A stretch of DNA of 35,816 bases from Candidatus Phycosocius bacilliformis (GTDB lineage Bacteria; Pseudomonadota; Alphaproteobacteria; Caulobacterales; Aquidulcibacteraceae). The notes under the pieces are model-generated. The model was not told where the DNA came from. It did not search any database and worked only from the letters and a program-made list of their open reading frames with translations. Below, in pieces: positions 21,843 through 34,088 of this stretch (its first letter is position 1; each line of letters opens with the position of its first letter). Location of the stretch: contig NZ_BFBR01000015.1 of the NCBI RefSeq assembly GCF_003112735.1, positions 1-35,816 of the forward strand, given 5' to 3'. The translations under genes and the position numbers were made by a program.

Positions 21843-22415
21843 CTAAAGAAACGCCCTGATCTGCCACCAGGCCAAGCGGGCGTTCAGCTTATCGGCAATC
21901 TCGGGAGATTGGGCGCGGGCGAGCAAGAGCGCTTCGGCTCCATAGATTTCAGGTGTTTCCGACAAAATCGCCGTGCCACCATGGGCCACCAGAAGATCGC
22001 TGGCCACACCCAGGGCCGGATTGGCTGTCACCCCTGACCAACCGTCTGAACCACCGCATGGCAAGCCCAGCTTTAACGCATTTAAAGGGGCAGGCTGGCG
22101 GCGGGCGGTATCGGCTTCGCGCAGGAGCTCGGCGACCAGAGCAGCGCCATGCTCTATGGCCCGGCTGGTCTCACCCACATCTTGGATGGTGAAACGATGC
22201 AGATTTATAGACGGGGATAGGCCCATTTGGTCGCGGACCCGGTCGCTCTGTGTCACCTTATAGCCCAACCCGATCAATACAACTGAATGGAAATTGGCAT
22301 GGCGGGCATAGCCTGCCATGCCACAGCCTCGGGCTGCAACAAGCATAAAAGGGCATTGGTGAGCGCCCGGGTCGAATTTCAAGCCTGGGCCGCAGGCCTT
22401 GAGGAAACAGCCTGA
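21843..22415 (-). pseudogene. uxaA: Altronate dehydratase (UxaA) remnant
   Basis: This minus-strand frame encodes only the middle of altronate dehydratase, which normally has about 500 residues and converts D-altronate to 2-keto-3-deoxygluconate. Recognisable blocks are GYARHANF, VVLIGLGYKVTQ, LGLPCGGSDGWSG, and GGTAILSETPEIYGAEALL. It stops right after LAWWQ, where intact enzymes continue for about 150 residues more. The N-terminal SAF domain is missing, and the sequence runs directly from GCGMA into GYARH, where intact proteins have extra residues, suggesting an internal deletion. An in-frame stop closes the upstream side at 22416-22418 and no good start is present. It is a decayed gene beside an otherwise intact pectin-degradation locus. 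Confidence 0.85.
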
Positions 22416-24095: not shown

Positions 24096-27080
24096 CTAGA
24101 ACTTCATCCGTGCGCCAAAGTAGAATTGGCGGCCGGAATTGGAGACATCAAACAGCAGGTCGTTCGCAACATTGCCTTGCGCTGTATTGTAGGTGATGCG
24201 GCTGTCTTGGGCTTCATCGGTCAGGTTCGTGCCTTCCAGCACGAAGGTGATACGATCATTGAGCTTGTAGGAGATTTGCATATCCAGCGAGCTCACCCCT
24301 TCTTTGCCCCACAGATCGGCTGACGATCCGGGGAGGAGGACCGAGATATAGCCGTCGCGATAGGAGTAGGACACCCGACCCGACAATTTCTTGCCTTCAT
24401 AATAAAGCGTCGCATTGTAGGAATTGGGCGACATGCCGATCAGATTATAGGCGGCATAGGTTGTTGCGGTCGCTGTCGAGGAGATCACATAATTGATCGT
24501 CGATTCCACCTGCGTGTAGTTCAAAATCACGCCGGTGTCCGACAAGAAGCTTGGCAAGAAGCTAAACGGCTGGTTGACCGAGATTTCATAGCCTTTGAGT
24601 TCGCCGCCCCGGGTGTTGACAGGCTGGGTGACCGTATAGGCCGTGGCGAGACTTTGGCCCGTGCCATCCAATAGCGAGACATCATAGCCCGTTTCACCAA
24701 ACGGAATGGTGCGCACTAAGGATTGGATCCAGGATTCCAAATCCTTCTTGAACAAGCTGACGGTGAACAAGGTGTCCTTGGAAGGATACCACTCAATGCT
24801 CATGTCATAGGTGTTGGCACGGATCGGGTCGAGATTGGGGTTGCCGATGCTTAGCGTATTGCTGGTGGTGTTGATCGACCCTGCCGGCGAAAGGCTCGCC
24901 AAGGTCGGGCGCGACATGGCTTTGGCAGCTGCAAAGCGGACCAAGACATTTTCCATCGGCTCAATCGTCAGATTGAAGGCTGGCAAGTAGTCTTCATAAG
25001 AGCGTTTCAGTGTGATTTTCTCTAAGACCGCACCGCGCGAGAAGAATCCGTCCACGGTTTGCGATGTGCCGACATAACGCACACCGATATTGCCGCGGAC
25101 CGGCATAGAACCAAGCTCGGTCTGGAAGTCAGACTGCACATAAAGGGCTGTATCTTCTTCTTGAGCCGAACGGTTGTTTGCCCGCGCATTATTATTGATC
25201 TTATTGACGGTGAACTGACCCCATTGATTGGTGCAGTTACAATTATAGTCAAACTTGGCGCGGATCTTATCCAGATCGGGAACCAAATAAGTCAGACCGG
25301 CTACGGTAACGGCTCGGGCATAATTGATCAGATTGCCGTTCAATTCGGCAACGATGCCAGACCCTGGTGTGGCGGCTTCGTTAGAGGTTTGGTCTGAAGT
25401 CGTGTAGCGACGCCATTCTTGGGTCTCAAACGAGAACACCTTGAACGAGCCACCAAACTTGAACTTCACAGAGTCGTTCCACTCATATTTGAAGTCCATC
25501 GCGCCGGTATTATAGGTATTTTCAACCGTCTGAGGACGCAAGCGGATCAAGGATGCGTCGCCATTGGCGTTGGTTGCGGCGGTGGTTGAAGAAGCTGCAG
25601 CATATTGCCAATAGCAACCTTGAGAAATGTTACAGCCCGTCGCGCTTCTGCCAAAGTCGATGATCGGCTTGGTCATGTCCGTCAGGTCATATTTATAGCC
25701 TTGGACATTGTAGGATTCAAAGGTGAAGGTCGTTTGCTCTGGGTTGTCGAGATAGGAGCGCGAGCTGCCAATCAAGAGCCTGCCCGAGAATTTATCGTTG
25801 AATTGCTGATCGAGCGTGAAATTGACCTGGTTGAACGTGGTCTTCAGCGCGTCAAAGCGCATTTCGCTGCGGATATCGACGTCATTGAAAGACGCCTTGG
25901 TGATCACCTTACGGCTATCGATCGTGTAATCATAAATATCGCTTTGCGGCACACCCGCTGTGTTGCGCGAGAAGGAGATGGGTTCGAGGTTATATTCGAT
26001 CCGGTCTGCGCTGAACTCAGAATGCAATACATCCAAGGTGAAGGTGGTGTTTTCGGTCGGGCGATATTGCAGCGAGCCTGTTATCCCCAAACGTTCTGCA
26101 TCGGTGATGAATTGGCTGGTGCGTAAGAAGCGTGGGTAGATAGCCTGCGTCACGGCCAAGGCCTCACCCGTCAAAGTCGGGTTGGTCGCGCTGACTTCGG
26201 TGGTGCTGCACACGCGGGTGGTTGCCGTGGTGCACGGCGTGATTTGAATGAAGGTGCGGCCGCCATCGGTGGAATAGGATTGCAGGCGGCCTGCATTGCC
26301 GGCGGAATAGGCATTTTGCCAGCGGCCTGAGTTCGGTCCTTCTTCAAAGTTTTGTTTGGTCGAATAAGCAATCGAGAACAGAGCGCCCAATTTGCCATCT
26401 GCCCAGCGGTTTGAGACCATGAAGGTCCCGCGCTTGCCGACATCTTCAGACAGATCATTGTAGCCGGCTTGCAGAGAGCCGGCCATGGTAAAGCCCTTAT
26501 AGTCGAAGGGGCGGGCTGTCCGCAGGTCGACGGTTGCCCCCAGCGAGCCTTCTTCGGTTTCTGCCGAAGTCGACTTGCGGACGGTCAGCGAGTTGAACAA
26601 TTCAGAAGCAAAGACGTTGAAGTCGAAGCCGCGGCCACGATTGGCCCCGCCATCCTTGTCTTTACCGCCCGTGGTAGAGATTGCTTCCAGTCCATTCAGG
26701 CGAACGCGGGTAAAGTCAGGGCCTAGGCCGCGAACCGTGATTGTCTTGCCTTCACCACCTTCGCGGTCGATGGCTACACCGGGGATGCGCTGAAGGGATT
26801 CTGCAAGGTTATTGTCGGGGAATTTGCCGATGTCCTCGGCCTTGATCGAATCGACAATGTCGATTTCAGCCCGCTTGGTTGCAATCGCTGAGCGCAAAGA
26901 CTCGCGGAACGACCCCCGTACGATGATCACGTCAACTTCAGGCTGGGGCTCCGCTGCGGCCTGGCCTTGCGTCTGGTTGGATTGGGACTGGTTGGATTGG
27001 GCTTGGGCCATACCCGCCATGAGACTGGCTGCAGCGACACCCATCATCAAACCAGCTGTCAGACGAAACTTGCGTGACAT
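24096..27080 (-). CDS. TonB-dependent receptor (Caulobacter/Xanthomonas type)
   Basis: A 994-residue outer-membrane active transporter. A signal peptide is at about 1-28 (ending MAGMAQAQ), followed by a Gln/Ser-rich linker (SNQSQSNQTQGQ) and a TonB-box-like VDVIIVRGS. The plug domain includes DIGKFPDNNLAESLQRIPG and TVRGLGPDFTRVRLNG, and the long beta-barrel ends in the terminal Phe of YFGARMKF, as outer-membrane proteins do. It resembles the large carbohydrate-linked receptors of Caulobacter and Xanthomonas. No SusD partner is encoded nearby. GGGGAGAAAACA precedes the ATG at 27080, 21 codons inside a longer frame. Location and regulation suggest uptake of pectin oligomers. Confidence 0.93.
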   Translation of the reverse strand: MSRKFRLTAGLMMGVAAASLMAGMAQAQSNQSQSNQTQGQAAAEPQPEVDVIIVRGSFRESLRSAIATKRAEIDIVDSIKAEDIGKFPDNNLAESLQRIPGVAIDREGGEGKTITVRGLGPDFTRVRLNGLEAISTTGGKDKDGGANRGRGFDFNVFASELFNSLTVRKSTSAETEEGSLGATVDLRTARPFDYKGFTMAGSLQAGYNDLSEDVGKRGTFMVSNRWADGKLGALFSIAYSTKQNFEEGPNSGRWQNAYSAGNAGRLQSYSTDGGRTFIQITPCTTATTRVCSTTEVSATNPTLTGEALAVTQAIYPRFLRTSQFITDAERLGITGSLQYRPTENTTFTLDVLHSEFSADRIEYNLEPISFSRNTAGVPQSDIYDYTIDSRKVITKASFNDVDIRSEMRFDALKTTFNQVNFTLDQQFNDKFSGRLLIGSSRSYLDNPEQTTFTFESYNVQGYKYDLTDMTKPIIDFGRSATGCNISQGCYWQYAAASSTTAATNANGDASLIRLRPQTVENTYNTGAMDFKYEWNDSVKFKFGGSFKVFSFETQEWRRYTTSDQTSNEAATPGSGIVAELNGNLINYARAVTVAGLTYLVPDLDKIRAKFDYNCNCTNQWGQFTVNKINNNARANNRSAQEEDTALYVQSDFQTELGSMPVRGNIGVRYVGTSQTVDGFFSRGAVLEKITLKRSYEDYLPAFNLTIEPMENVLVRFAAAKAMSRPTLASLSPAGSINTTSNTLSIGNPNLDPIRANTYDMSIEWYPSKDTLFTVSLFKKDLESWIQSLVRTIPFGETGYDVSLLDGTGQSLATAYTVTQPVNTRGGELKGYEISVNQPFSFLPSFLSDTGVILNYTQVESTINYVISSTATATTYAAYNLIGMSPNSYNATLYYEGKKLSGRVSYSYRDGYISVLLPGSSADLWGKEGVSSLDMQISYKLNDRITFVLEGTNLTDEAQDSRITYNTAQGNVANDLLFDVSNSGRQFYFGARMKF

Positions 27081-27163
27081 TGTTTTCTCCCCTCGAGGCT
27101 TGGCCCCTATCTTGTCTTGCAGGCTTGCTTGTCCATTGCACGCCAAGCCGCCAGACCGTCTTT

Positions 27164-27177
27164 TGCTACCGGTAGCA
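27164..27177. promoter_or_regulatory. Operator 1: perfect palindrome TGCTACCGGTAGCA
   Basis: A perfect 14-bp palindrome with the central CCGG typical of operators of some LacI-family regulators. It lies between the divergent receptor and lacI genes, over the likely -10 region of the receptor promoter. Its centre is 24 bp from operator 2. Binding by the adjacent LacI regulator is inferred. Confidence 0.75.
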
Positions 27178-27202
27178 TTTTCGAAAATGTCACCGGTGTC
27201 AA
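27174..27202 (-). promoter_or_regulatory. Candidate promoter of the TonB receptor-GH43 operon
   Basis: On the minus strand a perfect -35 box TTGACA (27202-27197) lies inside operator 2. Seventeen bases later AATGCT (27179-27174), a weak -10 match, overlaps operator 1. Repressor binding at either operator would cover the polymerase site. The 5' leader would be about 85-90 nt. Confidence 0.5.
27188..27201. promoter_or_regulatory. Operator 2: TGTCACCGGTGTCA
   Basis: A near-palindrome (one mismatched pair) with the same ACCGGT core as operator 1. Between them lies the perfect palindrome ATTTTCGAAAAT (27177-27188), whose centre is exactly midway, so the 38 bp from 27164 to 27201 form one large imperfect palindrome with 15 of 19 positions paired. 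Confidence 0.72.
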
Positions 27203-27270
27203 TCCTTATCTTGACCCAAGCGAAAAAACTGCTGCAGTGCCATGAGAGGTCGAGCTCAAGCTGGCCTTGA

Positions 27271-27298
27271 TTGACGTGCGCCGCGAGGCAAGGCTAAT
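27271..27298 (+). promoter_or_regulatory. Candidate lacI promoter
   Basis: TTGACG (27271-27276) and GCTAAT (27293-27298) are 16 bp apart, five and four matches to consensus, and end 25 bp before the GTG start. The paired operators lie about 70 bp upstream and do not overlap it, which would leave the regulator expressed when the receptor is repressed. Prediction only. Confidence 0.4.
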
Positions 27299-27323
27299 CC
27301 AACTATCGTATGCAGAGGTCAAC

Positions 27324-28403
27324 GTGAGCCACTCCCCCGACAGACATGATCAAACAGCTGCTTCAGGCAGCGGTGAGGGGCAGAGCCGCGGCAAGCCCAC
27401 GATCAATGATGTGGCCCGTTTGGCGAAAGTGTCCAAAAAAACGGTATCACGCGTCATCAATGAATCGCCCTTTGTCAAACAGAAGACGCGCGATGCGATA
27501 AAGGCGGTGATTGCCGAATTGGGCTTTACCCCGGATCCGCAAGCGCGGGCTTTGGCACGGCGCAAATCCTTTCTCATCGGGCTGGTATATGACAATCCCA
27601 GTCCACAATATGTGGTCAATATTCAGCGCGGCATACTTGATGCTTTGGAAGGCACGGACTTCCAACTGGTTCTCCATCCTTGCGACCGCACCAAACCTGA
27701 TCATGTCGCACGCGTGCGGGCTTTTGTGCAGCAGCACAAACCGTTCGGCCTTATTCTGCCGCCATCTGTTTCAGAAGACGAGCTGTTGGCGCGCACCCTG
27801 GATGAGGCGGAGGTGGATTATGTTCGCATCGCTTCGGTTCAGCTTGATAGTCCTTCCCGGATGATCCGGACACTGGACGGGGAGGGGGCCGCAGCCGCCG
27901 GTCGCCATTTGGCCGAGTTGGGCCATCGCCAAATTGCTCATATTCATGGCCCGTTGAGCTTCCGCTCAACCCATGAGCGCCGGGCGGGGTTTGAGCGCGC
28001 GCTCCATGAGGCGGGCCTGTCTCTTCAGCCTGATATGGCTGTTGAAGGCGGCTATACATTTGAAGGCGGCGTCACGGCCGCCGAGCAATTATTAAACCAA
28101 CCCAGCCCGCCTCAAGCTATTTTTGCGGGTAATGACGAAATGGCAACGGGGGCTTATGTCGCCGTGCGTCGGGCGGGTTTTCGAATTCCCGAGGACATCT
28201 CCATCGTCGGTTTTGACGATACGCCGATTGCGGGGCGGCTCTGGCCAGCGTTGACAACTGTTCGCTTGCCCATCCGCGAGATGGGAAGTGCGGCTGCGCG
28301 CCTTTTATTGGCGACGGCCAATGGTGCTGTTGCACGACAACTCGTAACATTCGAGCCAGAGATTGTCGTACGCGGCTCAACCGCAACCCCACACAAGGCC
28401 TAA
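27324..28403 (+). CDS. LacI-family transcriptional regulator of the pectin locus
   Basis: A 359-residue DNA-binding protein. The helix-turn-helix is TINDVARLAKVSKKTVSRVI at about 26-45, followed by the hinge helix region to about 80. A periplasmic-binding-protein-like effector domain follows (IGLVYDNPSPQY, HIHGP, AIFAGNDEMATGAY, ISIVGFDDTPIA). The start is GTG at 27324, preceded by GAGG at a good distance; an upstream frame would add 19 residues without a ribosome-binding site. An extra 25-residue polar tail precedes the helix-turn-helix. It is divergent from the receptor and 117 bp upstream of kduI. By context it likely represses both units through the ACCGGT sites and responds to a uronate such as 2-keto-3-deoxygluconate, an inference from position. 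Confidence 0.92.
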   Translation: MSHSPDRHDQTAASGSGEGQSRGKPTINDVARLAKVSKKTVSRVINESPFVKQKTRDAIKAVIAELGFTPDPQARALARRKSFLIGLVYDNPSPQYVVNIQRGILDALEGTDFQLVLHPCDRTKPDHVARVRAFVQQHKPFGLILPPSVSEDELLARTLDEAEVDYVRIASVQLDSPSRMIRTLDGEGAAAAGRHLAELGHRQIAHIHGPLSFRSTHERRAGFERALHEAGLSLQPDMAVEGGYTFEGGVTAAEQLLNQPSPPQAIFAGNDEMATGAYVAVRRAGFRIPEDISIVGFDDTPIAGRLWPALTTVRLPIREMGSAAARLLLATANGAVARQLVTFEPEIVVRGSTATPHKA

Positions 28404-28471: not shown

Positions 28472-28485
28472 TGACACCGGTTACC
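28472..28485. promoter_or_regulatory. Operator 3: TGACACCGGTTACC upstream of kduI
   Basis: It shares the TGnnACCGGT core with the two sites in front of the receptor gene, and is flanked by AAATG and CATTT. It lies 35 bp before the kduI start. Being less symmetric than operator 1, it may bind more weakly. Assignment to the neighbouring LacI regulator is inferred from the shared motif. Confidence 0.65.
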
Positions 28486-28520: not shown

Positions 28521-29369
28521 ATGTTCGACAAGGTTTATCATGCCACACATCCAGACATGATGGCCGGGGCCGATAATGATGCCTTGCGAGCCCGCTATGT
28601 TGTCTCCAATTTGTTTGAGCCTGAGGCGATCCACCTGAATTATTCCCATAATGAGCGGATGGTGATTGGCGGGGTGATGCCGGTGACACAATCTGTTGTC
28701 CTGCCGCACCAGAGCGAACCTGCATCCGCCGCCGGACATCCTTTCTTGGAGCGGCGCGAACTTGGCCTCATCAATGTCGGCGAAGGTGCCGGTATCGTCA
28801 GTGTTGATGGGCAAACATATGAGATCAAGCCGCGCGATGGTCTTTATGTTCCCATGGGATGCAAGGATGTTGTGTTTGCTTCGCAGTCTGCACAGGCACC
28901 GGCGAAATTCTATCTGGTCTCCACCCCGGCGCATGCGCGTTACGAGGTCGCCAAGATATCAATTGATACGGCCGTGCCTCTGGAGCGTGGCTCATTGGCT
29001 GAATCCAACGAGCGGGTGATTTATCAGTACATTGTCCCGGCGACGGTTAAATCGTGCCAATTGCTCTTGGGTCTTACCCAGCTCAATACGGGCAGCGTCT
29101 GGAACACGATGCCGCCGCACCTGCATGATCGCCGCTCGGAAGTCTATTTCTATTTCGGGCTGGGGGAAAAGGATCGGGTGTTCCACTTTATGGGTGAAGA
29201 AGACAAAATCCGCCACATCGTGATGGAAAATGACGAGGCGGTGATTTCCCCACCTTGGTCAATCCATATGGGGTCCGGCACGCGCAATTATAGCTTCATC
29301 TGGGCCATGGGTGGGGAAAACCTTGACTATACCGACCTTTCGGTCTGCGACATCTGCCAGTTGAAATAA
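28521..29369 (+). CDS. kduI: 5-dehydro-4-deoxy-D-glucuronate isomerase KduI
   Basis: A 282-residue cupin-type zinc enzyme converting 5-keto-4-deoxyuronate, released from unsaturated galacturonate, to 3-deoxy-D-glycero-2,5-hexodiulosonate. The metal ligands are evident: H200 and H202 in PPHLHDRR, E207 in SEVYFYF and H249 in WSIHMG. They are displaced by four residues from the E. coli positions as I recall them. FIWAMGGEN is the C-terminal hallmark. GGGAGG lies before the ATG at 28521. It heads the kduI-kduD-kdgK-esterase-lyase series. Confidence 0.97.
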
Positions 29370-29400
29370 GCGTTTGGAACAAACCCAAGGGGGACCCAGC

Positions 29401-30159
29401 ATGATCCTGTCATCCTTCAGCCTTGCAGGCAAAGTCGCCCTTGTCACCGGGGCCAATACGGGCCTTGGTCAAGGAATTGCACTCGCCTTGGCCGAAGCCG
29501 GTGCCGATATCGCCGCGGCGGGTATCGTGCCGGCTGAGGAAACCGGCGAAAAAGTGCGCGCTTTGGGCCGTCGCTTTCTCAATATCGAGGCCAATCTCAT
29601 CAGTATTGAGCCTGTTGAGCGGATTGTCTCTGAGACCGTCGCAGGCTTGGGTGGTCTTGATATTCTCGTCAATAATGCGGGTCTCATCCGGCGTCAGGAC
29701 GCGGTGGACTTTACTGAAAAGGACTGGGATGATGTGATGAATGTCAACATCAAGTCCGCCTTTTTCATGTGTCAGGCAGCCGGTCGTGTCATGATCCCGC
29801 AAGGCGCTGGCAAAATCATCAATATCGCCTCCATGCTGTCCTTCCAGGGTGGTATTCGTGTGCCCTCATACACCGCATCCAAAAGTGGCATTGCTGGGAT
29901 TACCCGGCTGCTGGCCTGTGAATGGGCGGGCAAGGGGTTGAATATCAATGCCATCGCGCCCGGCTATATGGCGACCGATAATACCGCACAATTGCGCGCA
30001 GATGAAAACCGGTCGGCTGAAATCCTCGGCCGCATTCCTGCTGGGCGGTGGGGCGAGCCCGCTGACTTGGGCGGGGCGGCGGTCTTTTTGGCCTCGCGGG
30101 CTGCTGACTATCTCAATGGCGCTGTCATCCCTGTCGATGGCGGCTGGCTGGCGCGTTAG
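29401..30159 (+). CDS. kduD: 2-dehydro-3-deoxy-D-gluconate 5-dehydrogenase KduD
   Basis: A 252-residue short-chain dehydrogenase that reduces the KduI product to 2-keto-3-deoxy-D-gluconate with NAD(P)H. It has the nucleotide loop TGANTGLG (16-23), NNAG (91-94), and the catalytic Ser near 144, Tyr157 and Lys161 in SYTASK. The C-terminal PVDGGWLAR is typical. AAGGGGGACC precedes the ATG at 29401, nine codons inside a longer frame. It follows kduI by 31 bp and precedes kdgK by 8 bp. Confidence 0.95.
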   Translation: MILSSFSLAGKVALVTGANTGLGQGIALALAEAGADIAAAGIVPAEETGEKVRALGRRFLNIEANLISIEPVERIVSETVAGLGGLDILVNNAGLIRRQDAVDFTEKDWDDVMNVNIKSAFFMCQAAGRVMIPQGAGKIINIASMLSFQGGIRVPSYTASKSGIAGITRLLACEWAGKGLNINAIAPGYMATDNTAQLRADENRSAEILGRIPAGRWGEPADLGGAAVFLASRAADYLNGAVIPVDGGWLAR

Positions 30160-30167
30160 GTTTGGTG

Positions 30168-31166
30168 ATGCCGGGCGCTGTCGTCTGCTTTGGAGAATTG
30201 CTGATCCGCTTAAGCGGCCCCGGGCATGAACGCCTGTTGCAATCACCCCGCCTGGATGTGGCGATCGGTGGGGCAGAAGCCAATGTGGCTGTCGGGCTCT
30301 CACGCTTCGGACACAAGGCCTCCATGGCCAGCGTGGTTGCAGATAATGAACTCGGCCGTGGTGCCATTGCCGCATTGCGAGCACAGGGGGTGGACACAAG
30401 TCTGGTTCGCCTGGCCCCCGGTCGAATGGGTCTCTACTTTCTCTCCCAAGGGGCAGTAAGCCGACCCTCCAGTGTGCTCTATGACCGGGCTGACACGGCT
30501 TTTGCGCGACTGGCCAAGAGCCTGACTGATCCAGCTGAGGTTTTGTCGGGCGCACGCTGGCTGCATGTGTCGGGCGTGACACCCGCAGTCGGCCCCCACG
30601 CGGCGCAGGCCGCTGTGGACTTGGCAAAAGCGGCCAAAGCACAGGGCGTTCATGTGTCCTTTGATGGCAATTATCGCGCGCAATTATGGGCGAGTTGGGA
30701 CGGTAACGGCCCTGATATACTGCGTGAGATTTTGTCATGCGCGACCTTGGCCTTCATCAATGAGCGCGACATTGCGTTGATACTTGGTGAGGGATTTGCC
30801 AGCCGACACGCCGCGTTCGCCCGCACCTTTGAGGTTTTTCCCAGCCTTACTTGGATCGCCGCAACCACCCGAAATCTGTCCTCGGTCAATCATCAAGTGC
30901 TGTCGGCAGAATTGGTGAGCCGCACCGAACGCTTTGTTTCCAGAGCCCATGAATTGGCTGGCGTGGTTGACCGGATCGGGGCAGGCGACGCCTTCGCCGC
31001 AGGCCTGTTGCACGGCTTCCTCTCCGGACAAGGCCCGCAAGCCAGTCTTGAGTTTGCCGTGGCTTCGGCGGTGATCAAGCATTCCATCCCCGGCGACTTC
31101 AATCTAACCTATGTTGAGGAGGTTGAGGATATATTGGCCGATGGCGGGCTCGATGTCAGGCGCTGA
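30168..31166 (+). CDS. kdgK: 2-keto-3-deoxygluconate kinase (PfkB family)
   Basis: A 332-residue sugar kinase that phosphorylates 2-keto-3-deoxygluconate to KDPG, the entry point to the Entner-Doudoroff aldolase step. The sugar-binding GGAEANVAVGLSRFG block is near 34-48 and the C-terminal PfkB signature DRIGAGDAFAAG has the catalytic Asp near 274. Adjacent TTG and GTG codons at 30162 and 30165 are possible earlier starts; the ATG at 30168 was preferred. Its 3' end overlaps the carboxylesterase gene by about 26 bp. No KDPG aldolase gene is in the window, so that step must be encoded elsewhere. Confidence 0.93.
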   Translation: MPGAVVCFGELLIRLSGPGHERLLQSPRLDVAIGGAEANVAVGLSRFGHKASMASVVADNELGRGAIAALRAQGVDTSLVRLAPGRMGLYFLSQGAVSRPSSVLYDRADTAFARLAKSLTDPAEVLSGARWLHVSGVTPAVGPHAAQAAVDLAKAAKAQGVHVSFDGNYRAQLWASWDGNGPDILREILSCATLAFINERDIALILGEGFASRHAAFARTFEVFPSLTWIAATTRNLSSVNHQVLSAELVSRTERFVSRAHELAGVVDRIGAGDAFAAGLLHGFLSGQGPQASLEFAVASAVIKHSIPGDFNLTYVEEVEDILADGGLDVRR

Positions 31167-32727
31167 TGGTCCCACCCGCCGTCGGGCCCTCGCCGGTGGG
31201 TTGGCCAGTTTTTTGATCTTTGATCAGGCGTGGGCCGATGTAGGCCAAGGCGTTGTGATGTCCCGCTTCGGCCCGGTGCGCGGGGTCAAAGAAGGCGGTC
31301 TGCAGATTTTCAAAGGCCTCCGTTACGGCCAAGATACAAGGCTGACACGCTTTGCCCGACCCCAGCCACCTGTGCCTTGGCAGGATGTGGTCGATGCCGA
31401 TACGTATGGCTCTGCCTGTCCCCAACCGGGCCGGGAGCCGAACCAGTCAGAAGACTGCCTCTTCCTCAATATCTGGACACCGGGACTGGATCCCCGCGCC
31501 AAACGCCCTGTCATGGTCTATATCCACGGTGGGGCCTATCATACTGGTTCGGGCACATCGCCCCTGACCGATGGCAGCCTGCTGGCCAGTCAAGAGGATG
31601 TGGTGGTGGTCACACTCAATCACCGCCTCAATCTATTTGGCTATCTCTATCTCGCGCAGCTCATGCCAGACACCTACCCCGATAGCGGCAATGCGGGGCA
31701 ATGGGACCTTGTGTTGGCGCTCAATTGGATCAAGGCCAATATCGCCCGGTTTGGCGGCGATCCACAGCGCGTTATGGTGTTTGGCCAGTCCGGCGGCGGC
31801 GCCAAGATTGCCAGCCTGATGGCCGCCCCGGCGGCGGCGGGTCTGTTTCATGCCGTTGCGACTATGAGTGGCCAGCAGGTGACCGCCTCTGGACCGCTCA
31901 ATGCCACACGCCGCGCCAGCACCCTTCTCGATGCCCTCAAGACAAGCCCGCAGGAAGTGGTCAATCTGCCCGCCCAGCGCCTTTTGGAAGGTCTTGTGGC
32001 GGCAGACCCAATCAACCCAAGCCAGAAGCTCTATATGGGCCCGGTGCTTGACCAACGCCATTTGACTCGTCACCCATTCTGGCCCGATGCGCCCGCACAA
32101 TCTGCTCATCTTCCCATGATTTTGGGCAATGTCGCTGATGAGACCCGTGGCCTGATCGGCCGAAGTCAGCCCGAGGCATTTGATCTGACGTTTGAAGCCC
32201 TGCCGACCTGGCTTGCGGCCCATATGCGCACCGACATTGCTCCCGCCCATGTCATTGCCACCTATCAAGCCGCCTATCCGGGGATCAGCGCCAGTGACCT
32301 GTTCTTCAAAGCCACAACCGCGGCGCGATCCTGGCGCGGTCAGGTCGAGGAAGCCGATGCCCGCGCCCGACAACAGGCCCCGACCTGGGTTTATCGCCTT
32401 GACCTCAAGAGCCCGGAAGATGGCGGCAAATGGGGGGCCTATCACACAATCGACATCCCCCATGCTTTTCGCACTCTCGCTGCATCTGGCCCGATGACGG
32501 GCACAGGCCCCGACGCACAGCGGGTCAGCCAACAATTGTCCTCCGCCCTTGTTCACCTGGCCCGGACGGGATCGCCCGCCACCAAGCACCTGCCACACTG
32601 GCCACGTTATGACCTGCCAAACCGGCAAACCATGATCCTCGATGCCACCAGCCGGGTTGAACGCGATCCGCGCGGGGTGGAGCGGGCTTTGTTCCAAACC
32701 GTGCCTTTCATCCAATGGGGCAGCTGA
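31141..32727 (+). CDS. Type-B carboxylesterase family protein, exported
   Basis: About 528 residues. It carries a twin-arginine-like N-terminus (TRRRALAGGLASFLIF) and the alpha/beta-hydrolase features of type-B carboxylesterases: SEDCLFLNIWTP, the oxyanion loop YIHGGAY, the nucleophile in GQSGGG (S217, where GESAGG is usual), acidic residue in ADET (near 334), and His in AYHTIDIP (near 435). Within this operon it probably removes acetyl or methyl ester groups from pectin before or after lyase cleavage, an inference from position. The start is uncertain: ATG at 31141 or 31153 fits, both overlapping the end of kdgK. It overlaps the lyase gene by one base. Confidence 0.88.
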   Translation: MAGSMSGADGPTRRRALAGGLASFLIFDQAWADVGQGVVMSRFGPVRGVKEGGLQIFKGLRYGQDTRLTRFARPQPPVPWQDVVDADTYGSACPQPGREPNQSEDCLFLNIWTPGLDPRAKRPVMVYIHGGAYHTGSGTSPLTDGSLLASQEDVVVVTLNHRLNLFGYLYLAQLMPDTYPDSGNAGQWDLVLALNWIKANIARFGGDPQRVMVFGQSGGGAKIASLMAAPAAAGLFHAVATMSGQQVTASGPLNATRRASTLLDALKTSPQEVVNLPAQRLLEGLVAADPINPSQKLYMGPVLDQRHLTRHPFWPDAPAQSAHLPMILGNVADETRGLIGRSQPEAFDLTFEALPTWLAAHMRTDIAPAHVIATYQAAYPGISASDLFFKATTAARSWRGQVEEADARARQQAPTWVYRLDLKSPEDGGKWGAYHTIDIPHAFRTLAASGPMTGTGPDAQRVSQQLSSALVHLARTGSPATKHLPHWPRYDLPNRQTMILDATSRVERDPRGVERALFQTVPFIQWGS

Positions 32728-34088
32728 TGCCAACAAGCTCAGCGACAGCCCTGTTGTTTGGCTTGATCACTCTGGCAAGCCCCGCCGTACCGGCATCGAC
32801 CAGCCCGGTCCAAAAGGCCTTTCCCGGTGCCGAAGGCTATGGCGCCTATACGCAAGGCGGGCGCGGCGGGCGCGTGATCAAAGTCACACATCTGGGCGAT
32901 GCTGGACCCGGCAGCCTGCGCGCGGCAATTGAGGCCAAAGGTCCCCGCATCATCCTGTTTGAGGTCGCAGGCACCATCGATCTTCAGTCCCCCTTGGTGA
33001 TACGAAACCCCAATATCACCCTTGCCGGGCAAAGTGCTCCAGGTGGCGGTATCACGCTCAAGCGCCACGGCTTGATCATTTCGGCAGGCGAGGTCATCAT
33101 CCGCTTCATACGTGTGCGACCAGGTGACATTTCGGGGACAGAAACCGATGCCATCTCGCTGACAGCAGGCCGCAACATCATCATCGACCATTGTTCGGCT
33201 TCGTGGTCGACCGATGAGACCTTGTCCGTCTCCCAACACTTGAGCCCGCCTGAGCGTCAGCTCGATCGCGTGACCGTGCAATGGTCGATCATCGCCCAGT
33301 CGCTGGATCAGTCGGTCCACACTAAGGGCGCACATGGCTATGGCTCTTTGGTGCGTGGTTCGGCAGGTTCGCGCTATAGCTTTCACCACAATCTGTGGGC
33401 TCATCATCGGGCCCGCATGCCGCGGCCCGGCAATTTTGCCGATCCGACCAGCGATCCCGTTGGCCCGGTGATCGAGTTTGCCAATAATGTCTTCTACAAT
33501 TGGGGCGGGGGGAAGGAGTCCGGCTCTGGCTATAATGTCGATGAGGCGGCGATCAGCCGCTATGATTTCCGCGCCAATAGCTATCGACCCGGCCCAAATT
33601 CGCAATCGGCCATCGCCTTTGTCGACTCCGCGCCCGGTGCGCAAGCCTTTGTTGAGGCCAATGTTATGGGTGGTGACGTACGACCAGCCCGTGAGATCTT
33701 TGTGTTGAAGCGCGCCGAGGAGGGCTATTTTAGCCCAGCACCCTTGGCAACGTCCGGCCTGAAAATTGACCCGGCCTTGCCGGCCGAGGCGCAGGTCTTG
33801 GCCCATGCCGGCGCGTCGGTCTGGCGTGACAGTCTGGATCAACAAATTGTTGCCGATGTGCGCGCCGGCACGGGACGCATCATCAATTCGCAGAATGAGG
33901 TTGGCAATTGGCCTGAAGTGCCCAGCGGGAAGGCTGCGGCAGACCGCGATGGGGATGGGATGCCTGATCTGTGGGAGGTCGCCCATGGCTTTGATCCTGA
34001 CAATGCTGCCGATGCGTCGCGCGATCCAGATGGCAATGGCTATTCGGCATTGGAAGACTGGTTGAATAGCTTGGCCGCAACCTTCTAA
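32727..34088 (+). CDS. Pectate lyase (PL1-like), secreted
   Basis: A 453-residue secreted right-handed beta-helix enzyme that cleaves polygalacturonate by beta-elimination. A signal peptide is at about 1-24. FPGAEGYGAYTQGGRGG opens the mature protein, GSLRAAIEAKGPRIILFEV and NITLAGQSAPGGGI follow, and IIIDHCSASWSTDE lies in the calcium-site region near 152-164. RARMPRPG and FANNVFYNWGG mark the later helix turns. The last 50 residues (DRDGDGMPD, DPDNAADASRDPDGNG) form Asp-rich calcium-binding repeats of thrombospondin type 3 character. Start chosen at 32727, where ATG overlaps the esterase stop (TGATG); an alternative in-frame ATG is at 32715. It is the last gene of the operon. Confidence 0.93.
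   Translation: MPTSSATALLFGLITLASPAVPASTSPVQKAFPGAEGYGAYTQGGRGGRVIKVTHLGDAGPGSLRAAIEAKGPRIILFEVAGTIDLQSPLVIRNPNITLAGQSAPGGGITLKRHGLIISAGEVIIRFIRVRPGDISGTETDAISLTAGRNIIIDHCSASWSTDETLSVSQHLSPPERQLDRVTVQWSIIAQSLDQSVHTKGAHGYGSLVRGSAGSRYSFHHNLWAHHRARMPRPGNFADPTSDPVGPVIEFANNVFYNWGGGKESGSGYNVDEAAISRYDFRANSYRPGPNSQSAIAFVDSAPGAQAFVEANVMGGDVRPAREIFVLKRAEEGYFSPAPLATSGLKIDPALPAEAQVLAHAGASVWRDSLDQQIVADVRAGTGRIINSQNEVGNWPEVPSGKAAADRDGDGMPDLWEVAHGFDPDNAADASRDPDGNGYSALEDWLNSLAATF

Follow-up and report, generated by a model that had tools for sequence, protein, structure and literature searches.

According to the survey by Ravcheev et al. 2014 (PMC4052901), some 20% of the operons under LacI-family control have tandem sites in front of them. 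The spacings of such sites peak at 13, 22 and 32 bp, and the 22- and 32-bp peaks are taken as a sign of cooperative binding; most sites of the family lie 30-140 bp upstream of the start. Table 1 of that survey names KdgR/UxuR-type LacI regulators of uronate catabolism, and its abstract and sections 9-11 name no pectin regulon for Caulobacterales. LacI-type regulators at sugar-receptor loci are described for SucR-SucA of Caulobacter crescentus (PMC11897816), where the receptor is TonB-dependent, and, in passages of PMC1790865, for SuxR with the sucrose TonB receptor of Xanthomonas. The locus described here shares this arrangement; however, both of those systems concern a different sugar and a different regulator, and operator layout is neither described for SucR-SucA nor present in the passages on SuxR. 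Literature searches returned no recognised description of the present regulon, which may already stand in RegPrecise; among the titles listed for the motif letters none concerns it, and the passages of PMC5507952 contain nothing on it.

The window, the whole stretch of 35,816 nucleotides that was analysed, is contig 15 of the 3.33-Mb genome of Candidatus Phycosocius bacilliformis. It holds a pair of sites that resembles the LacI-family tandem operators in the text of PMC4052901 in its even palindromes with central CG and in having more than one site per regulatory region, and this multiplicity is conserved (at least two sites in nine aligned loci and in 34 of 39 receptor promoters). It may depart from the peaks given there (13, 22 and 32 bp), the spacing being 24 bp in the present lineage and 31-35 bp in others. 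Judged against that part of the source, the best reading is that the pair belongs to this known kind. Likeness to the KdgR/UxuR regulators, as they appear in PMC4052901, lies in the LacI family and in the glucuronate/galacturonate target pathway, KdgR being a label given here from context.

The paired sites and their gene neighbourhood

The features of the region are as follows.

24096..27080, minus strand: gene of a TonB-dependent receptor (TIGR01782 type; start codon ATG), presumed target of the pair
27164..27177, strandless: O1, putative operator proximal to the receptor gene, the perfect 14-bp palindrome TGCTACCGGTAGCA; kept in 9/9 aligned loci (in G013 with TGCCACCGGTGGCA)
27178..27187, strandless: linker of 10 bp, TTTTCGAAAA; of the pairs examined, only those of the genus have it fully symmetric
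27188..27201, strandless: O2, putative operator distal to the receptor gene, TGTCACCGGTGTCA; kept in 9/9 aligned loci
27324..28403, plus strand: LacI-family regulator, presumed site binder, KdgR-like by context
28472..28485, plus strand: putative third operator, TGACACCGGTTACC, upstream of kduI; asymmetric, its right half unlike the halves of the pair
28521..29369, plus strand: kduI, 5-dehydro-4-deoxy-D-glucuronate isomerase
29374..30159, plus strand: kduD
30162..31166, plus strand: PfkB-family sugar kinase, probably 2-keto-3-deoxygluconate kinase (under the curated cut-offs of the KDG-kinase models)
31111..32727, plus strand: carboxylesterase-family protein
32715..34088, plus strand: pectate-lyase-like protein (match under the Pfam cut-off)

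The receptor gene runs leftwards on the minus strand from a start 83 bp from the proximal site, and a GH43 gene comes next after it. From its gene content, the locus reads as a pectin/uronate utilisation locus, and the receptor is a probable pectin-uptake receptor. The NCBIfam matches of the regulator are to other LacI members, each under its cut-off; a relative at 85% is found in Aquidulcibacter paucihalophilus. Elsewhere in the window, a 179-aa open reading frame (21843-22382) matches altronate/galactarate dehydratase domains in part only and is perhaps a remnant or a split gene.

O1 and O2 are both 14-bp palindromes of the type TGNNACCGGTNNCA, even and with a central CG, and are centred at 27170.5 and 27194.5, hence 24 bp apart. 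Between them lies the perfect palindrome ATTTTCGAAAAT, centred at 27182.5, so that, over the whole 38 bp, 15 of the 19 arm positions agree; the symmetry ends at the edges, where five further bases on each side give one match in five. Direct inspection thus confirmed the sequence, coordinates, 24-bp spacing, midway central palindrome and 15/19 arm matches given in an earlier note on this DNA. That note had also placed two repressor dimers on roughly the same face of the helix. This holds only loosely: 24 bp is 2.29 turns at 10.5 bp per turn, and the sites are about 103 degrees out of phase. A spacing of 34 bp corresponds to 3.24 turns and 86 degrees, and 22 and 32 bp are closer to whole turns.

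We considered whether such sites arise by chance or persist through phylogenetic inertia without having a function. Their overall number is at background: the window shows no enrichment of ACCGGT by itself (7 observed against a mean of 5.2 in shuffles), full TGNNACCGGTNNCA sites are not enriched genome-wide (7, where the reversed pattern gives 10), and a one-mismatch scan of the genome stayed at background level (28 and 19 against 27 and 20 in controls), with three exact matches, namely O1, O2 and C7:234868. However, two of the seven genome-wide sites falling within 60 bp of each other is expected only about 0.0008 times, and pairs are kept beside receptors across genera while the remainder of the sequence diverges. 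A functionless origin is accordingly very improbable.

Conservation, spacing and the presumed regulator

Among seven genomes of the genus, including the present one, all 38 positions are invariant, compared with 14/30 and 12/30 in the adjoining flanks. Both sites and their 24-bp spacing are kept in nine aligned loci (the present one, six of the genus, G011 and G013). These loci were picked for a pair beside the regulator; G123, whose pair lies 2.6 kb off, was omitted. The earlier note had named relatives that keep the genes and lose the sites as evidence against its reading. No such case occurs in the genus, where seven genomes have the regulator, the receptor, kduI and the pair, while G004 and G005 jointly lack the regulator orthologue, the receptor orthologue, kduI and the pair.

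In 398 genomes of the order, we searched for pairs of inner half-sites at a centre-to-centre distance of 16-46 bp; the true pattern matched 96 genomes and the reversed control 39. A pair set was assembled from 80 named loci and 63 loci among the matches listed from this search (L045-L067 and L148-L187); the listed matches G002:C75, G192, G111, G127 and G172:C6 and the own and genus copies L038-L044 were left out. Eleven of the 63 search loci yielded no row, their outer half-site differing from TG/CA. Among the matches listed and the named loci, 87 pair rows were obtained, 80 of them with a receptor homologue downstream. Collapsing identical sequences, some genomes being present in two copies, left 76 distinct pairs, 69 of which have a receptor homologue downstream.

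Within these 76 distinct pairs, the spacings were 15 bp (1 pair), 22 (3), 24 (18), 25 (1), 31 (1), 32 (11), 33 (12), 34 (21), 35 (4), 42 (1) and 52 bp (3), with none at 26-30 bp; 71 pairs from the named loci and matches listed thus fall at 22-25 or 31-35 bp. Not counted in this strict table are a 19-bp pair in L092 (edge filter), a neighbour at 23 bp in L080 and, in L143, a pair at 80 bp. The narrow classes suggest a constraint, be it dimer contact or promoter geometry; relatedness also contributes to their narrowness.

The receptor promoters of the 80 named loci were testable in 39 cases, L092 and L100 being left out of the count because their upstream DNA is too short. At least two full sites were present in 34, one in four and none in one; a second site is thus not obligatory. 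The single-site promoters are those of L090, L093, L097 and L122, the second operator being missing or degenerate in some lineages.

Some members of the pair set have a different layout. The receptor promoter of L167 seemingly has three sites, at spacings of 15 and 32 bp, and in those of L163, L166, L173 and L182 a third site seemingly lies 52 bp away from one of the two sites that the pair search had matched. Seven pair rows have no receptor downstream: L158, for which no family was found, and L162, L165, L170, L174, L183 and L187, all with a spacing of 33-34 bp. The L162 pair lies between the genes of KDPG aldolase and phosphoenolpyruvate carboxylase; L165, L174, L183 and L187 are like it in sequence, and the L170 pair lies beside a phosphoenolpyruvate carboxylase gene.

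The distribution of the pair follows that of the regulator. Taking a match to the LacI protein with an E value below 1e-94 as a regulator homologue, the pair is present in 51 of 85 genomes with a homologue and in 6 of 115 without (200 genomes; Fisher p 3.6e-18), and outside the family in 34 of 52 with and 6 of 88 without; p values of this kind overstate the association because related sequences are not independent. By the search pattern, 34 of the 85 genomes with a homologue have no pair. Of 30 loci, 29 retain the recognition segment VSKKTVSR. The altered segment of L034 suggested a correspondence with lost sites, but this idea was abandoned: the segment is intact in L018 and L024, and their short loci hold no site of at least 9/10 either.

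ACCGGT-centred sites suit several LacI-family regulators, and the genome contains four matches to the LacI protein, so that the main binder might be a paralogue rather than the adjacent protein. Against this stand the co-occurrence, the joint absence and the position of the pair beside the adjacent regulator, which make a paralogue an improbable main binder. The earlier note had assigned the two operators before the receptor gene to the neighbouring LacI protein. Conservation, co-occurrence and joint absence support this assignment, which is very probably right. We regard these data as good comparative evidence, short of proof, and presume that the adjacent LacI protein binds the sites.

Pair-type half-sites are found again at kduI, giving the pattern of a KdgR-type regulon, in which a LacI-type regulator has predicted sites at kdu and uptake genes. 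The exact 14-mer TGACACCGGTTACC of the third operator has 103 occurrences, spread over 71 of the 80 named loci; one half of this kdu-type operator is very often GGTAACC. A further candidate site with such half-sites, TGACACCGGTTTCC, lies elsewhere in the genome (G000:C7:234868-234881; L188:1501-1514), flanked on one side by a divergent pectate-lyase-like gene and on the other by a TRAP-transporter operon that includes a solute-binding protein (DctP).

Symmetry of the 38 bp and placement of the promoter

The earlier note had held the symmetry of the entire pair to be more than tandem operators need. This was not borne out. Of the 15 arm matches, 10 come with any two copies of TGNNACCGGTNNCA, whichever linker joins them, so that only the five linker matches are extra, and full linker symmetry is confined to the genus. 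The same note had proposed alignment in relatives as a check on the spacing and the central palindrome; the 24-bp spacing is kept in 9/9 loci, but the central symmetry is lost beyond the genus, falling from 5/5 linker positions to 4/5 in G011 and 2/5 in G013. Over the 18 distinct 24-bp pairs, linker symmetry averages 2.1/5, against 1.6 expected from composition, and a 38-bp composite operator with a symmetric linker is thus not conserved among them. For the 31-35-bp class (49 distinct pairs), the mean share of symmetric linker positions is 31%, with a maximum of 6/9.

We rejected the composite palindrome as a unit on the linker symmetry across relatives. This idea, in which the whole 38 bp would form one palindromic element, read by a symmetric higher-order complex such as two dimers joined across ATTTTCGAAAAT, draws on the fully symmetric linker, on the 38/38 invariance in the seven genus genomes and on the low probability of a 5/5 linker by chance (about 0.003 from composition). 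The incomplete symmetry in G011 and G013, the low means of both spacing classes and the automatic origin of two thirds of the arm matches speak against it, and we consider it unlikely. On these comparisons, the overall mirror symmetry is mostly a by-product of two paired symmetric sites and a linker that is symmetric in the genus. The invariance of that linker makes some constraint possible there, such as demands of the promoter or of DNA shape. As this case shows, two symmetric sites side by side can be enough to produce a striking long palindrome.

Two candidate elements of the receptor promoter overlap the pair.

27197..27202, minus strand: TTGACA, candidate -35, overlapping O2
27174..27179, minus strand: AATGCT, candidate -10 at a 17-bp spacer, extending into the edge of O1; a weak element, with 3/6 matches to TATAAT

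The placement of the -35 in one operator and the -10 in the other had been proposed in the earlier note. The TTGACA in O2 is indeed present, but the -10 is weak, and scanning 27060-27340 for a consensus promoter gave none; consensus promoter and terminator scans of the receptor and kduI regions likewise found nothing. Among 19 distinct pairs at 24-25 bp, a T stands before the distal TG in 17 and an A before the proximal TG in 17, giving the pattern TTGNNA-N17-nATGNN. A TTG separated from nnTGAC by a 17-bp spacer stands at 15 of 32 distinct single sites before kduI and at 22 of the 69 other single sites; it is missing from the kduI sites of the genus itself (L068-L073). The two 17/19 frequencies and the counts at single sites make it plausible that, in the 24-bp class, the -35 and the -10 lie inside the pair.

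In the 31-35-bp class, the T and the A are found in 26 and 29 of 42 pairs, respectively. Upstream of these 42 pairs, a TTG lies at 35-36 bp in 27 and TAnnnT at 11-12 bp in 23. These clusters make it likely that the promoter of this class lies upstream, with the operators at or past the transcription start.

These data bear on what sets the spacing. With the -35 in O2 and the -10 in O1, the 24 bp could reflect the 17-bp promoter spacer rather than dimer contact, the two sites blocking RNA polymerase independently. The T and A frequencies of the 24-25-bp pairs and the TTG at a 17-bp spacer of single sites, both at kduI and elsewhere, point this way. However, the -10 of the window is poor and no consensus promoter was found, the T and A also recur at 31-35 bp, where a -35/-10 at 17 bp is impossible and promoter-like clusters stand upstream of the pair, and TTG at 17 bp is missing from the genus's kduI sites. 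We therefore hold a promoter-set spacing to be a serious candidate but the less probable one.

A working model for receptor control

Taken together, the 38 bp are most probably two tandem operators of the adjacent KdgR-like LacI repressor over the receptor promoter, released by a pectin/uronate intermediate, with the kdu operon under one asymmetric site. In this model, two repressor dimers would sit side by side on O1 and O2, possibly bound cooperatively, and cover the receptor promoter region. A pectin or uronate breakdown intermediate, perhaps 2-keto-3-deoxygluconate or a related keto-sugar, would act as inducer and free the dimers, so that the receptor would be produced while its substrate is in use. 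The kdu operon would be controlled by the same LacI protein through the single asymmetric site at 28472.

More tentatively, and with considerable doubt, we propose that the pair may serve as a conserved promoter module, putting the receptor under tighter, more switch-like control than the single-site enzyme operon of the regulon. Caulobacterales would then have retained both operators, at a spacing of about two or three helical turns, even as the promoter shifted from within the pair to a position upstream. The contrast between receptor and enzyme genes, two symmetric sites against one asymmetric site, recurs in many relatives, and the predicted sites provide a testable operator map of a putative pectin/uronate regulon in the order to which the model Caulobacter belongs.
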